Below are positions 8,658-24,063 of a stretch of 64,000 nucleotides of DNA, piece after piece. Source of the stretch: Thermococcus aggregans (GTDB lineage Archaea; Methanobacteriota_B; Thermococci; Thermococcales; Thermococcaceae). Below the pieces are notes generated by a model. It was not told the origin of the DNA. It did no database searches and was given only the letters and a program-made list of their open reading frames with translations. The position numbers and the translations under genes are program-made. The stretch covers positions 1,601,054-1,665,053 of the forward strand of contig NZ_CP099582.1 in assembly GCF_024022995.1 (NCBI RefSeq), in the 5' to 3' direction. Position 1 is the stretch's first letter; every line of letters begins with the position of its first letter.

Positions 8658-11099
8658 ATGACCGTGAAAGTGAGATTCGACAGGGAAGTGAGAGAGTACG
8701 CTAAAAGCGAGGGTGTTAAAGATTCAACGTTAAAGCTCACTGAAACGGCTCTCGCAGAGGCTATTGAGGAATTTCATAGAAGAATGATAGTTTTAGCCGG
8801 AGATACCATGAAAAAAGCAACCTTGGCTGGAATCCTCGGTGGGGCTGCTGCTAAAATAATCTCATCTATTCTTGAGGATCTTATGAAAAAGAAGCTTAGG
8901 GATGAAAGTGAAAACAAAGTTGAGGTTCTCTATGCCACGGATGCTCTCGGCCAAGAGACATTTGGAAGAAAGAGGTATGAGGAATTCAGGAAGCACTTTG
9001 ACGTTTTGGTAGGGGAGAACGTAAACGTTACGGCAGTTACCTTTAAATACACTCGGGAAATTCTTGGAAGGACTTACGACCTTCTTGTCCTCGATCTCAG
9101 CTATGATTTCTCCCCTAATGACCTTGGTAGGATAATAGAAACGGTTAGGGGAGGAGGACTAATATTTGTTCTTGCCAACCCCTTCGAGAAGTGGAAGAAT
9201 ATGTGGACTGGCTTCCACAAGAGCCTTGTTACTCCCCCCTACACCATAGATGACGTGAAGAAGAGATTTAACCGGAGACTGATTAGGAAGTTTGAAGAGC
9301 ATGAGGGGATTTACATCTTAAACGCCGAAAGCCAAAAAATCCTCAAAGGGCCGAAGAATGAGAAAACTCAAGCAAAGCTTCCCGAAAGAGAGAAGATTGA
9401 AATTCCAGACGATATAAAGTTCCCAAGAGAGCTCTATGAGCTCTGCCTTACGAACGGGCAGGTTGAGGTTCTTAAAGCCCTCGAAGAATTAATAGAAAAG
9501 GATGGAATGGTGGTTTTAACGGCTGACAGAGGAAGAGGAAAGAGCGTCAGCGTCGGTATAGGCTCAATTGGTCTCGCAGTGAGGGCAAAGAAAAAGCGCG
9601 TGAGGATAGTTGTTACGGCTCCAGAACTCGAAAACGTTCAGAGCCTCTTCCGCTTTGCGAAAAAAAGCCTCCAAAAGCTCGGTTACAAGCCGAAAGTTAT
9701 AATGGAAAACGGCCTCATAAAGGAAATATACGCCAAAGGGATAGGGTTGAGATATTACCCGCCAACCCAAGGGTATAAAATGAACGCAGATGTTTACATA
9801 ATTGACGAAGCCGCTGGAATCCACGTGCCGATACTCCATAAGTACCTCACCAAGCCCAAAGTGATTTATTCCTCCACAATTCACGGATACGAAGGAGCTG
9901 GAAGGGGGTTCTCGGTTAAGTTCCTAAAGAAGGCAAAGGAGAAGAGGGAGTTCAAGGAGATACACTTATCAGTGCCGATTAGATACGAAAGCAACGACCC
10001 CATTGAGAGGTGGCTCTTCAATGTCCTTCTACTGGATGCAGAGCCGGTAGAGCTTACCGAAGAGGACTACGAGCTTATTAGAAAGAAGGAAGTCTACTTC
10101 GAAAAGCCCGACCTTGATGATTGGTTTGAAAACGACAGAGAAGATTTGAGACACTTCGTTGGTATTTACGTCCTTGCCCACTACAGGAACAGACCGAGCG
10201 ATGTTGCCCTTCTAGCGGACGCTCCCCACCATGAAGCGAGAGTTTTGAGGCTTAAAAACGGAAAGATAGTCTGTGCCGTGCAGATAGCCAAGGAGGGCGG
10301 AATTCCGAAGAAGGACATAGATAGGATGGTAAAGGGCTACAAGCCCAGAGGAAACATAATCCCCGATATGATGGTCAAACATCACTACGCAAAGGAATTT
10401 GCAAAATTAAAGGGCTATAGAGTTGTGAGAATAGCCACTCACCCAGATGCAATGGATATGGGTCTTGGAAGTAAGGCGCTCGAGTTGCTTATTCAAGAAG
10501 CCGAGAGAGAAGGGTTTGATTGGGTAGGAAGCGGATTTGGAGCAAGTGAAGAGCTTATAAGGTTCTGGGTGAGAAATGGATTCGCAGTAGTTCACCTAAG
10601 CCCCTCAAGAAACCCCGTTAGTGGAGAATACACGGCGATAGTGATAAAGCCGATAAGCAAAAAAGCTCAAGAAATCGTCAAGAAAACCAATGACGAATTC
10701 AGAATCAGGCTTACGGAGTGGCTTGGGGACACGCATAGAGACTTGGAGCCGGAAATAGCAAGATGGCTCTTCGAGACGCCCTTTGGAGAGAGCGTCAATT
10801 ATCCAATACACCTCACAGACGTGCAGAAGAAGAGGCTTGAAATGTTTGTCGGCAAGGTTTTAACCTACGACACAGTTCTTGACGCGGTAAAACCGTTGGT
10901 AAAGCTATATTTCCTCGATGGCTGGATGAAGCCATATCTCGACGAAAGACAGATACACCTCCTCATCTACCGTGTTCTCCAGGCACACACATGGGAAGAG
11001 ACCGCTAAGTTCATCAACAGAAGCCCAATGTTCACGATGATAGAAGTGAGGGACATAATAAGGGGTCTCTGGTACTACTACAAGCACATAATTAAGTGA
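8658..11099 (+). CDS. tmcA: tRNA(Met)/RNA cytidine N4-acetyltransferase TmcA (Nat10/Kre33-like)
   Basis: An 813-residue ATP-dependent enzyme that acetylates cytidine in RNA; in Thermococcus the homologue modifies tRNA, rRNA and other RNAs and supports growth at high temperature. The order is: DUF1726-like N-terminal domain (to about 220), RNA-helicase-like module with P-loop ADRGRGKS near residue 295 and an acidic IIDEAAG motif near 380, a GNAT acetyltransferase domain around residues 530-660 (RIATHPDAMDMGLGSKAL contains the acetyl-CoA binding loop), and a C-terminal tRNA-binding part. The ATG at 8658 follows GTGGGG closely. It is divergent from the peptidase gene. Confidence 0.93.
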   Translation: MTVKVRFDREVREYAKSEGVKDSTLKLTETALAEAIEEFHRRMIVLAGDTMKKATLAGILGGAAAKIISSILEDLMKKKLRDESENKVEVLYATDALGQETFGRKRYEEFRKHFDVLVGENVNVTAVTFKYTREILGRTYDLLVLDLSYDFSPNDLGRIIETVRGGGLIFVLANPFEKWKNMWTGFHKSLVTPPYTIDDVKKRFNRRLIRKFEEHEGIYILNAESQKILKGPKNEKTQAKLPEREKIEIPDDIKFPRELYELCLTNGQVEVLKALEELIEKDGMVVLTADRGRGKSVSVGIGSIGLAVRAKKKRVRIVVTAPELENVQSLFRFAKKSLQKLGYKPKVIMENGLIKEIYAKGIGLRYYPPTQGYKMNADVYIIDEAAGIHVPILHKYLTKPKVIYSSTIHGYEGAGRGFSVKFLKKAKEKREFKEIHLSVPIRYESNDPIERWLFNVLLLDAEPVELTEEDYELIRKKEVYFEKPDLDDWFENDREDLRHFVGIYVLAHYRNRPSDVALLADAPHHEARVLRLKNGKIVCAVQIAKEGGIPKKDIDRMVKGYKPRGNIIPDMMVKHHYAKEFAKLKGYRVVRIATHPDAMDMGLGSKALELLIQEAEREGFDWVGSGFGASEELIRFWVRNGFAVVHLSPSRNPVSGEYTAIVIKPISKKAQEIVKKTNDEFRIRLTEWLGDTHRDLEPEIARWLFETPFGESVNYPIHLTDVQKKRLEMFVGKVLTYDTVLDAVKPLVKLYFLDGWMKPYLDERQIHLLIYRVLQAHTWEETAKFINRSPMFTMIEVRDIIRGLWYYYKHIIK

Positions 11100-19051: not shown

Positions 19052-20563
19052 TCAGCGCATGTATTTCCTTGCAAAGACCGTTAGAAACACGGCCCACATG
19101 AACATTCCAAATATTGCTTCGAGGGAAGCAATAACTCTGCCGATCCCAATAGGGTGGAGATCGCCATATCCAAGGGTTGTCGCAGTCACTACACTAAAAT
19201 ACTCATAGTCGAGAAAACTCCTTAAAGGCACGCCTGGGCTTGTAACGCTTTTCGTGAGATAAAATATTGTTGGAAATACAAGATTGACCATAAATATCCA
19301 GATAAGGATAGGTCTTTTCCAGTCGGTTCCATATTTACATGTCAAATCAGCAAAAAACCACTCAAAAAAGCCCTCTAAAAGGCGAACATAGTGCTTTATT
19401 TTGGTTTTAATCCTGCCAGCAGGGAGGGATGGAAGTCTTATTTTGAGTCCAAGTTTGGGTAAATAGACCATATACCTCCCCATTTTTTGCTTTCTCCTGG
19501 CAAGCATCTCTAGGTAGTAATATTGATCCGCCTTTTCCTTGTCCCCGCTTTTTTCCCACGTGATCCTTGCCATACGGTAAAAGAATTCTTCCATCGTCGG
19601 GTTATTAAAGCTGCATTCCTCCAGAATGACGAATCCTTTTACGTTTAGTTCTGCCAGAAGATTTGGGAGTACGGTCAAGTTCCACGTTGTATCACCGTAA
19701 AATGTAACACCTCTAAAAACCAAATTATTATGAATGGTAGTGTGTACAAATTCAGGAACTTTTAACCTTCCTCCTCTTATTTCTACGTGTCCCAGAACTT
19801 CAAGGTTTTCAAGCTGGAGGACTCCATCAAAGTTTCTGATAAACAGCCTAACCTGCCTCTTAAACCTCGGGCTGGGGTCAAATTCTATATTCTTTATGAG
19901 GAAAATCTTTGCTTTTACATGCTTTCTTGACATCCCGGATAGTGTTATTCCATGTTCCTCCAAAATCTCTTTAAGCAAGGGATACATGGAATTTACTCCT
20001 ATTCTTCTGACGTTTTTGAGGTCTGAAAACTCTATCCTTCCGTATATTGTTTCTTTTTCTCCATATTCCTCTTCACCTGACCTTTCCTGCTTTGCATACT
20101 GAACAGAGTTTATCATCAAGTACCGAACCGTGCTGTTCTTTATGGAAATCGAGTTCTCAAATTTGATGTCAAGAATATTAAATCCAAAGAAGACTGAGTT
20201 TTTTACCCAGATTGTGGCTATAGACGATGCTAAGAGTATAACCCTATCAATTTCGCAGTTGAAAATGGACAGGCCTTTTAATTCGGAATTTTCAACAATA
20301 AGGGTCTTTATTTTCGAATTTTTAAACACAAGAGGCTTGTCACTTTTCAAATTTGAAACTTTGGCTTCATAAAGCTGGACACCTTCAAAATACCTAACTC
20401 CTCGCTCCAGCTTTCTTTTGAAAGCTCTTTCCTTAATTTCTCTTATTCTATCTCCATAAAGCAGTTCGCCCTCCTCAAAAGGGATGTGGAGTGAGCAGTA
20501 TTTCGAGCCTGATAGAGCCTTTGTTTTACACTCTTTCCCATTTTCAAAGACGTACTCGCACAT
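19052..20563 (-). CDS. Two-helix potassium-channel-like protein with large N-terminal repeat domain
   Basis: A 503-residue protein. The C-terminus has a first helix (about 417-437), a pore loop with the potassium selectivity filter TTLGYGD (462-468) and a second helix (about 475-500), as in two-transmembrane K+ channels. The N-terminal 25 residues contain a small Cys/His cluster (CEY, GKECK, KYCSLH) resembling a zinc knuckle. Between lie about 300 residues of short strands with regularly spaced hydrophobic residues (LIVENSELKGLSIFNCEIDRV and similar), suggesting a pentapeptide-like right-handed beta helix. The domain probably gates or localises the channel; that is inference. ATG at 20563. 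Confidence 0.82.
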   Translation of the reverse strand: MCEYVFENGKECKTKALSGSKYCSLHIPFEEGELLYGDRIREIKERAFKRKLERGVRYFEGVQLYEAKVSNLKSDKPLVFKNSKIKTLIVENSELKGLSIFNCEIDRVILLASSIATIWVKNSVFFGFNILDIKFENSISIKNSTVRYLMINSVQYAKQERSGEEEYGEKETIYGRIEFSDLKNVRRIGVNSMYPLLKEILEEHGITLSGMSRKHVKAKIFLIKNIEFDPSPRFKRQVRLFIRNFDGVLQLENLEVLGHVEIRGGRLKVPEFVHTTIHNNLVFRGVTFYGDTTWNLTVLPNLLAELNVKGFVILEECSFNNPTMEEFFYRMARITWEKSGDKEKADQYYYLEMLARRKQKMGRYMVYLPKLGLKIRLPSLPAGRIKTKIKHYVRLLEGFFEWFFADLTCKYGTDWKRPILIWIFMVNLVFPTIFYLTKSVTSPGVPLRSFLDYEYFSVVTATTLGYGDLHPIGIGRVIASLEAIFGMFMWAVFLTVFARKYMR

Positions 20564-20581: not shown

Positions 20582-20980
20582 TTACTCCTTAGCTATAACT
20601 ATATCATCCAGAGTTTTTAATCTTGCTCTTTTCGCAGCCTCCTCAATTTTTGTGGGGATTTCTCGAAGGGGTCTGAGGATTATTGTCTCAATTTGTGAAA
20701 AGCCCAGCTTTTTTCTGGCATACGCCCTATGATGCCCATCTAAGATGTAGTAGTTCCCTTTGTGCTCTAAAACTATAACAGGGGCATCGTAGCCGTGAAC
20801 TATTTCTTGAAGAACTACCAGCAGTTTCTTCTCATTTAGTTCCCATTGGGTAGGTATGAGCGCTTCAAGGGGGAGGTATTTGTGCTCCATATCAAATGGC
20901 ACGCCGTAAAGTGCTTCATTCTCCTTCTTTATTCTCTCTGCTCTTTCAAATGCCTCTTCCCTAGTGATAAGCCTAATCAC
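20582..20980 (-). CDS. ParB/sulfiredoxin-fold protein
   Basis: A 132-residue soluble protein with the ParB/Srx signature LDGHHRAYARKKLG near its middle, the nucleotide/phosphate-binding motif of this superfamily. Archaeal members include the free serine kinase SerK, which is larger; this one could be a small kinase, a nuclease-like protein or a DNA-binding partner. GTG at 20980 is chosen because GGGGAG lies six bases before it; a TTG six codons earlier is less likely. The start overlaps the end of the methyltransferase gene, so the two are coupled. Confidence 0.72.
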   Translation of the reverse strand: MIRLITREEAFERAERIKKENEALYGVPFDMEHKYLPLEALIPTQWELNEKKLLVVLQEIVHGYDAPVIVLEHKGNYYILDGHHRAYARKKLGFSQIETIILRPLREIPTKIEEAAKRARLKTLDDIVIAKE

Positions 20981-21650
20981 TTTTAACTCCCCTAACAACT
21001 ATAAATGCTCCAAAGTTCTTTAGCTTATCGCTGAACTTTTGGTCAAGCTTCTCAGCAAGCCCTAAAAAGGGGAAAAATGAAGGAAAGTATATAATCCCTC
21101 TGCTCTCAACGTCTTTAAAACCCGCTTTTTTCATAAGATCTTCGAGTTCCTTTGGCGTGTAAAACCTTGCATAGCGATAGGCGGTTTCCACAAAAAGGCT
21201 TTTCAAGCACTTAAACAGGAACCATAGGCTTCTTCCATTCATTGTACCAATCACTACTTCTCCTCCAGGTTTCAAAACCCGGTAAATTTCCTTGAGAGCT
21301 CTTTCGGGTTCGTGTATAAACTCAAACATTGTAACGCTCAGTACTAAATCAAATGTATTCTCCTCAAAAGGTAGTGAATAAGCATCTGCTCTAATGAACT
21401 TAACGTTTGGGAGCTTTTTTCTGGCTATCTTTAGCATTTCCTCGCTTATGTCTACGCCAACAACTTCAAATCCTCGCTTATAGAGCTCTAAAGTATAATT
21501 GCCAGTCCCACATCCAAGGTCGAGGGCCTTACCTCTCTTGGTTTTCATCATAGAAAACACTAACTTTTTCTCTGTTCTATCCACATAACGTCCGACCCTG
21601 GTTTTGTACCACTCATCGTAGCGGGGCGCTATTTTATTGAAGTACTCCAC
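20973..21650 (-). CDS. Class I SAM-dependent methyltransferase
   Basis: A 225-residue cytoplasmic protein with the Rossmann SAM-binding motif LDLGCGTGNYTLEL near residue 45, the acidic post-motif VVGVDISEEML, and the UbiE/COQ5-like motif LVLSVTMFEFIHEPERALKEI. The methyl acceptor cannot be read from the sequence. The start is set at a GTG preceded by GGGGGG; a TTG five codons upstream is possible. It overlaps the ParB-fold gene downstream by eight bases. Confidence 0.85.
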   Translation of the reverse strand: MEYFNKIAPRYDEWYKTRVGRYVDRTEKKLVFSMMKTKRGKALDLGCGTGNYTLELYKRGFEVVGVDISEEMLKIARKKLPNVKFIRADAYSLPFEENTFDLVLSVTMFEFIHEPERALKEIYRVLKPGGEVVIGTMNGRSLWFLFKCLKSLFVETAYRYARFYTPKELEDLMKKAGFKDVESRGIIYFPSFFPFLGLAEKLDQKFSDKLKNFGAFIVVRGVKSD

Positions 21651-22920: not shown

Positions 22921-23445
22921 CTACTCCTCATACCCCTCGCTCTGACCGCTTTTTCCCTCCATTTTTATTACATAGTCCGCTGCATTCTGAAGTGCAATAC
23001 TAAATCCCGGTTCCACCCCTATGACCACGGTTTCCTTACCCTTTCTCTTTGCCTCGTTTATTATGGGGAGGAAGTCCGCATCCCTTGTAGCCAAAGCTAT
23101 TACCTCTATATCGCTGTTGTATATCAACTCCATGGCTTCAATGGCGATTCTTACATCAGTATCTCCGGCAACTATTATGGGCTCAAACCCTTGGTTAACA
23201 ACTGCTTCAATAAGCCCCTGAGGGGCATATTGATTCAGAACAACTTTTGCAACCCTGATTTTTCCAATTTTTTCCAGTGCTTCCTTTATATCTTCAAGCT
23301 TAATCCCGAATTCCTTCCTTAGTATGTTGGGTCCGTCTATTATCAGCCCTATGCTCTTTGATGGAACTTCAACTTTTTCTCGCTTCTCTTTTTCCTTAGG
23401 CTCTCTTTCTTCTCTTCTCAGTATTTTGAAGAATGCTGCTCTCAT
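22921..23445 (-). CDS. NYN-domain protein (LabA/DUF88 type) with complete acidic site
   Basis: A 174-residue protein of the PIN-like NYN superfamily, whose members are metal-dependent RNases. The expected acidic residues are all present: Asp37 in IDGPN, Asp95 and Asp97 in AGDTDVRI, Asp122 and Asp124 in ATRDADFLP. The basic and acidic N-terminal 30 residues are probably disordered. It overlaps the paralogous gene upstream (23396-23947) by 50 bases; both share phrases such as [14 protein letters not shown] and [11 protein letters not shown]. The GGGTGA ribosome binding site precedes the ATG. RNA substrate unknown. Confidence 0.88.
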
Positions 23446-23947
23446 TTACTTCACCCCTTTTAAGAGTTATCACGTAATCCGCAGCATGCTTTAAAGCGGC
23501 ACTAAACCCTGGTTCAATCCCAATTATCGCGGTTTCTTTTCCTTTTTCTTTTGCCTTCAAAATTATCGGAAGAAATTCCGCGTTTCTTGTGGCTAAGGCT
23601 ATAATATCTATATTTGGATTGTATATCTCCCTCATTGCTTCAACGGCCAGTTTTACCCCTGTCTCTCCGGCAACTATTATTGGCTCAAAGCCTTGATTTG
23701 CGACCGCTTCAATGAGCCCCTGAGGGGCGTATTGATTTAGAATAACTCTTGCAACCCTAATATTGCCAAGCTCTTCCAGTGCCGCAACAATGTCCTCAAG
23801 ATGCACATTGAATTCCTTTCTGAGAATATTCGGTCCATCTATAAGGAGGGCGATCTTTTTTCCTCGCTGGATTTTCTTTCTCATCATTGCAATACTCTTG
23901 ACTCCTTCCTTTGTCATGGAGACTATTTTCTCCCAATTACTGGGCAT
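23396..23947 (-). CDS. NYN-domain paralogue with substituted acidic residues
   Basis: A 183-residue paralogue of the neighbouring NYN gene, first in the pair. Over the shared domain the residue numbers coincide: Asp37 is kept (LLIDGPN), but Asp95 becomes Glu, Asp97 becomes Gly, Asp122 becomes Asn and Asp124 becomes Glu. The fold-determining motifs remain intact, so the protein is likely stable but weakly active or inactive as a nuclease, perhaps a regulatory or dimerising partner. ATG 23947 has GGTGAT upstream. The end overlaps the next gene by 50 bases, implying translational coupling. Divergent from the Mrp operon. Confidence 0.85.
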
Positions 23948-24063
23948 CGTTATCACCGCAATATATGAAAAACATGCATGGAAAAATATGTTTCAAAAGT
24001 ATAAAAAACTTAAGGAAACTGCCAGACGAAAGGATTATAATCAATGAAAGTCTAATAAAAAAC

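Follow-up and report, generated by a model that had tools for sequence, protein, structure and literature searches.

A conserved pair of NYN paralogues in Thermococcales, one with a full active-site acid set and one without

What becomes of a nuclease-like protein whose active-site acids have been replaced, when an intact paralogue is encoded directly beside it? In the window, by which we mean the whole 64,000-nucleotide stretch of the Thermococcus aggregans genome that was analysed, this question is raised by two adjacent genes on the minus strand, which we call UP (upstream) and DN (downstream). In what follows we examine the acids that differ between them, their history and constraint across Thermococcales, and the genes that accompany them, and we weigh a heteromeric nuclease against four other explanations.

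Two overlapping NYN paralogues and their acids

UP (23396-23947, minus strand) encodes 183 amino acids from its ATG, with an alternative in-frame GTG at 23956 that would add three residues, and DN (22921-23445, minus strand) encodes 174. Their reading frames are coupled through a 50-base overlap (23396-23445, minus strand) that contains the UP stop and the DN start. The two proteins align without gaps, with 95 of 134 residues identical (71%, E 3e-70), and the original prediction of adjacent paralogues that overlap by 50 bases and share most of their sequence is borne out, as is its residue numbering. Both match Pfam NYN (PF01936) and exceed the TIGR00288 cut-off of 178.45 (DN 221.7 bits, UP 212.1 bits), and they are the only two TIGR00288 copies in the genome.

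The six acidic sites of DN are D37, D95, D97, E103, D122, and D124, and at the same sites UP carries D37, E95, G97, E103, N122, and E124. UP therefore differs from DN by D95E, D97G, D122N, and D124E and retains D37 and E103. An earlier count of four acids replaced out of five holds for the four changes themselves and slightly overstates the loss, because two of them are conservative and the sixth acid, E103, is kept. UP has also kept the invariant non-catalytic residues (D37, G38-N40, R43, K44, E80, N84, R121, K133, G136, S149, and D157).

AF2 models of the two proteins have core pLDDT values above 90 in both cases, and the top solved Foldseek matches of both are 2qip and the NYN domain of MARF1, which places the models in the NYN/PIN-like fold. 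MARF1 NYN (6fdl, 5yaa) is the best match of known activity, with a TMt of 0.70-0.76 to both models at ~14% identity; it is a proven endoribonuclease, and alanine at two of its active-site aspartates strongly cuts activity (PMC6294520). Matches to Gfo-type dehydrogenase folds were set aside as generic Rossmann similarity (TM < 0.45). In a profile alignment to 2qip, D95 and D97 fall on GDWDV, E103 on LDA, and D122 and D124 on SGDGDF. Judged by this acidic cluster, DN is predicted to be the active member and UP a pseudonuclease, with D97G and D122N universal in UP alongside D95E and D124E. UP might still be a nuclease with a rearranged site built from D37, E95, E103, and E124, possibly with another metal or substrate preference; these four carboxylates, two of them reached by D-to-E changes, are all invariant. 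We nevertheless regard this as very improbable, as the counterparts of the 2qip acids in GDWDV and SGDGDF, D97 and D122, are glycine and asparagine in all UP sequences.

The reading that we prefer, and to which we give about an even chance, is that the two proteins together make up a single heteromeric NYN ribonuclease of Thermococcales, with UP as its pseudonuclease and DN as its nuclease subunit, and that this enzyme serves the maturation or quality control of RNA (tRNA or rRNA).

Conservation, constraint, and origin of the pair

The pair was found in 89 of 94 Thermococcales genomes. One of the other five, G076, is well assembled, but its contig stops exactly at the locus and the neighbouring gene is missing too, so the absence of the pair there is an assembly artefact and a true absence is ruled out; the remaining four are 73-82% complete. 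Wherever both ORFs are readable, UP and DN are adjacent and on the same strand. UP is interrupted in a single genome, G030, by one extra base soon after the DGPN motif, with the downstream sequence intact; the extra base reflects a true frameshift or an error in sequencing.

The acid differences recur throughout the order. Sites 37, 95, 97, 103, 122, and 124 read D-E-G-E-N-E in 83 of 83 distinct UP sequences that cover all six, and D-D-D-E-D-D throughout DN, bar one fragment and one E103V. The substitutions are thus not peculiar to this genome but fixed across Thermococcales. Over 84 non-redundant genome pairs, UP and DN are fixed for different residues at 12 of 133 core sites, and four of the six active-site acids are among those 12, which exceeds chance (hypergeometric p ~5e-4).

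Both proteins are strongly constrained, with a mean core identity of 0.86 for UP and 0.89 for DN (84 non-redundant genome pairs) and a median dN/dS of 0.027 and 0.024, respectively. A dN/dS of 0.027 together with invariant replacements means that UP is not decaying, and a degenerating pseudogene is ruled out. The dead copy is conserved with nearly the same strictness as the live one and is therefore probably a partner with a function, not a decaying duplicate.

Selection for a stable, non-catalytic partner had been proposed for UP, with toxin-antitoxin modules and regulatory heterodimers as models. The core of that proposal stands: UP is under selection, looks non-catalytic, stays with DN, and is fixed order-wide. 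The toxin-antitoxin part, with UP as the antitoxin, does not. Two small overlapping ORFs, one of them nuclease-like, do resemble such a module, yet the pair is universal across Thermococcales, behaves as core genes (dN/dS ~0.025), and has single-copy relatives without a partner in sister families. The LabA-like NYN model of PADLOC matches DN weakly and UP not at all. No relatives of the pair were found in phage and viral collections, and plasmid matches are distant NYN proteins with less than 40% identity. Presence in 89 of 94 genomes and in none of the phage or viral contigs is the opposite of the patchy, mobile-associated distribution of type II systems. We find this explanation scarcely credible and reject it because of how the pair is distributed, how constrained it is, and its absence from the viral collections.

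In the phylogenetic tree, UP and DN each form one clade (100/99), the two clades are sisters (96/82), and single-copy members from the same class come next; other families of that class have a single intact TIGR00288 copy. As UP and DN form separate clades, the tandem copies have not been mixed by gene conversion. The tree indicates one duplication of a TIGR00288 protein in the Thermococcales stem, before the order diversified, and marks the four acid changes as derived in UP. DN has derived changes of its own, K131E and E134R, at sites where UP retains the ancestral K131 and E134. The result is a charge swap in DN, but both sites sit on a single helix and may contact each other inside one chain, which weakens the swap as a sign of a heteromer. 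The N-terminal segment of UP is closer than that of DN to single-copy relatives, although the signal is weak (median 4.2 bits, shuffled -0.6), and the basic N-terminal extension of UP probably resembles theirs. This pattern fits a duplication with division of labour.

Thermococcales are not alone in carrying a degenerate form. In Korarchaeia (16 loci), the sole TIGR00288 copy has K95, E97, S122, and A124, with D37 kept and the domain otherwise conserved. These copies form one clade (100/97) far from UP, and on this placement Korarchaeia lost the same acids independently. Acids have also been lost in a few other Thermoproteota copies (L058, L167, L168, and L169), and the set is intact in the sampled copies from DPANN and Micrarchaeota and in one from a haloarchaeon. 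About 20 residues beyond the central acids are invariant in all degenerate forms. From these independent losses, comparison of sequences points to a non-catalytic TIGR00288 form that was retained more than once, and the loss in Korarchaeia suggests a conserved role of the family beyond cutting. A third, methanogen-like TIGR00288 gene with several adjoining transposase-like ORFs, on a small contig (G091:C77) of a Thermococcus assembly, is probably contamination.

The Korarchaeia copy has no partner; a pseudonuclease from this family can thus function by itself, which counts against a heteromer. A lone non-catalytic form is evidently of use in the family, and UP could likewise be an independent, non-catalytic RNA-binding protein that serves the same RNA class as DN without forming a complex, their overlap reflecting operon compaction. 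The isoelectric points are in keeping with separate roles, with UP basic (pI 9.5) and DN acidic (pI 5.2). We consider this rather unlikely, given that UP and DN never separate, even after relocation to new contexts.

Linkage of the pair and its RNA-related neighbours

In almost all genomes the end of UP runs past the start of DN, with overlaps that range from 4 to 125 bases: 4 in most Thermococcus, at least 50 in the window's genus and a T. barophilus-like group, and 59-125 in a Pyrococcus-like group. UP and DN are linked in three genomic contexts, the two genes having moved together in the window's genus and in one other (g3). Translational coupling and three shared contexts make a heteromer plausible.

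Order of translation bears on a further explanation, in which UP restrains DN as an inhibitory heterodimer partner or a decoy that binds substrate, and does not activate it. UP is translated first, as is often the case for nuclease inhibitors, and a substrate pocket that is conserved but lacks the central acids would be well suited to a competitor. Sister families, however, use an intact single copy without any inhibitor, and UP is as widespread as DN; a purely restraining UP therefore seems to us distinctly unlikely.

The common neighbour of the pair is tmcA, the gene for a Nat10-type RNA cytidine acetyltransferase, identified by NF041296 at 519.9 bits, below the model's cut-off of 700, which is haloarchaeal. 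It lies upstream of the pair on the same strand in 67 of 67 genomes of four genera (g2, g4, g5, and g6) and directly adjoins it in all of these bar one g2 genome, in which two genes intervene; the pair thus comes immediately after tmcA in four of six genera. In G001, tmcA and the pair are separated by two genes on the same strand, one for an Lhr-type helicase (PRK13767) and a small one that is phosphoesterase-like. In the window, tmcA (8658-11099, plus strand) is 12 kb from the pair. T. kodakarensis needs its TmcA (TK0754) both to make ac4C and to grow at high temperature (PMC6393311).

Single TIGR00288 copies elsewhere also have RNA-related genes beside them. In one family of the same class (f3) they neighbour uppS, thpR, and the gene for the archaeal CCA enzyme (cca); in DPANN they adjoin aRF1, and in Natrinema a gene for a TRAM protein. 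We count the RNA-related neighbours (tmcA, and elsewhere ThpR, the CCA enzyme, aRF1, and the TRAM protein) in favour of a heteromer that processes RNA.

The immediate flanks in the window are different. On one side lies a divergent MnhE-type antiporter gene, whose start probably lies at ~24064 on the basis of a PRK08382 match that begins at residue 52 of the long ORF, leaving a divergent intergenic region at 23957-24063. On the other lies, convergent and tail to tail, a gene for a ThermoDBP-RP_arch protein (PF10015). The original prediction had named both neighbours correctly, but its stress on Mrp and a single-stranded DNA-binding protein carries little weight, because this neighbourhood is confined to the window's genus; ThermoDBP-RP is located elsewhere in G002, G009, and G020. 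We reject a functional link of the pair to either, given this lack of conservation. An Rfam search around the pair found no RNA gene or riboswitch.

Two further genes of the window are described here for their own sake. At 20582-20998 (minus strand) lies a stand-alone ParB/SerK-like protein of 138 amino acids with a DGHHR motif, no Pfam match, and only weak NCBIfam matches. At 19052-20563 (minus strand), a protein of 503 amino acids, judged by eye, combines a cysteine motif in its N-terminal part with a long central region and a C-terminal stretch (TTLGYGD) resembling a potassium-channel pore.

A candidate heteromeric ribonuclease

The nearest parallel in arrangement comes from eukaryotic nonsense-mediated decay (NMD), where SMG5, an inactive PIN paralogue, completes the active site and RNA path of the active SMG6 (PMC12923823). 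UP and DN, as predicted here, resemble SMG5 and SMG6 in being inactive and active PIN-like paralogues that co-occur and of which the inactive member is conserved. The systems differ in that SMG5 and SMG6 are eukaryotic, carry PIN and not NYN domains, and are separate large proteins recruited by UPF1, whereas the UP-DN complex is only a proposal; the likeness is one of arrangement, and we claim no orthology. MARF1 NYN differs from the pair in another way: it is a single active domain within a large protein and is monomeric in solution (PMC6294520). Dimerisation is thus no rule of the NYN fold, which counts against a heteromer.

In the heteromer that we propose, a single TIGR00288 protein duplicated in the Thermococcales stem, after which DN kept the metal-binding acids and would supply catalysis, and UP lost the central acids D97 and D122 but retained the fold and the invariant non-catalytic residues. 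The overlapping frames would lead to balanced synthesis, with UP and DN made in equal amounts. By analogy with SMG5 and SMG6, UP may then position the RNA, complete the DN site, or both, and the substrate would be structured RNA, handled during the maturation or surveillance of tRNA or rRNA. A stronger form of this proposal is a composite NYN nuclease in a prokaryote: UP and DN would form an obligate heterodimer, UP would complete or direct DN, and the complex would work with TmcA when tRNA or rRNA matures or is surveyed, as an archaeal counterpart in principle of SMG5-SMG6. We put this form forward tentatively, as somewhat unlikely.

The NYN family and its fold are already known. UP and DN both belong to TIGR00288, with its fold and its invariant residues; elsewhere in the class the family occurs as one intact copy, and in Thermococcales as a fixed intact/degenerate pair. 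Such an order-wide pair appears to be undescribed in the literature searched, which was largely non-subscription; within the same partial coverage we found no mention of TIGR00288 or of T. kodakarensis TK0755/TK0756, the locus numbers that follow tmcA. The linkage to tmcA is a first functional lead for this widespread and uncharacterised archaeal family. A nuclease and pseudonuclease pair that is strictly conserved across an entire order offers a clean natural case in which to ask what a dead nuclease is for. If UP does complete DN, archaea too would have paralogous PIN-like nucleases that divide the labour between them, as eukaryotic NMD does.
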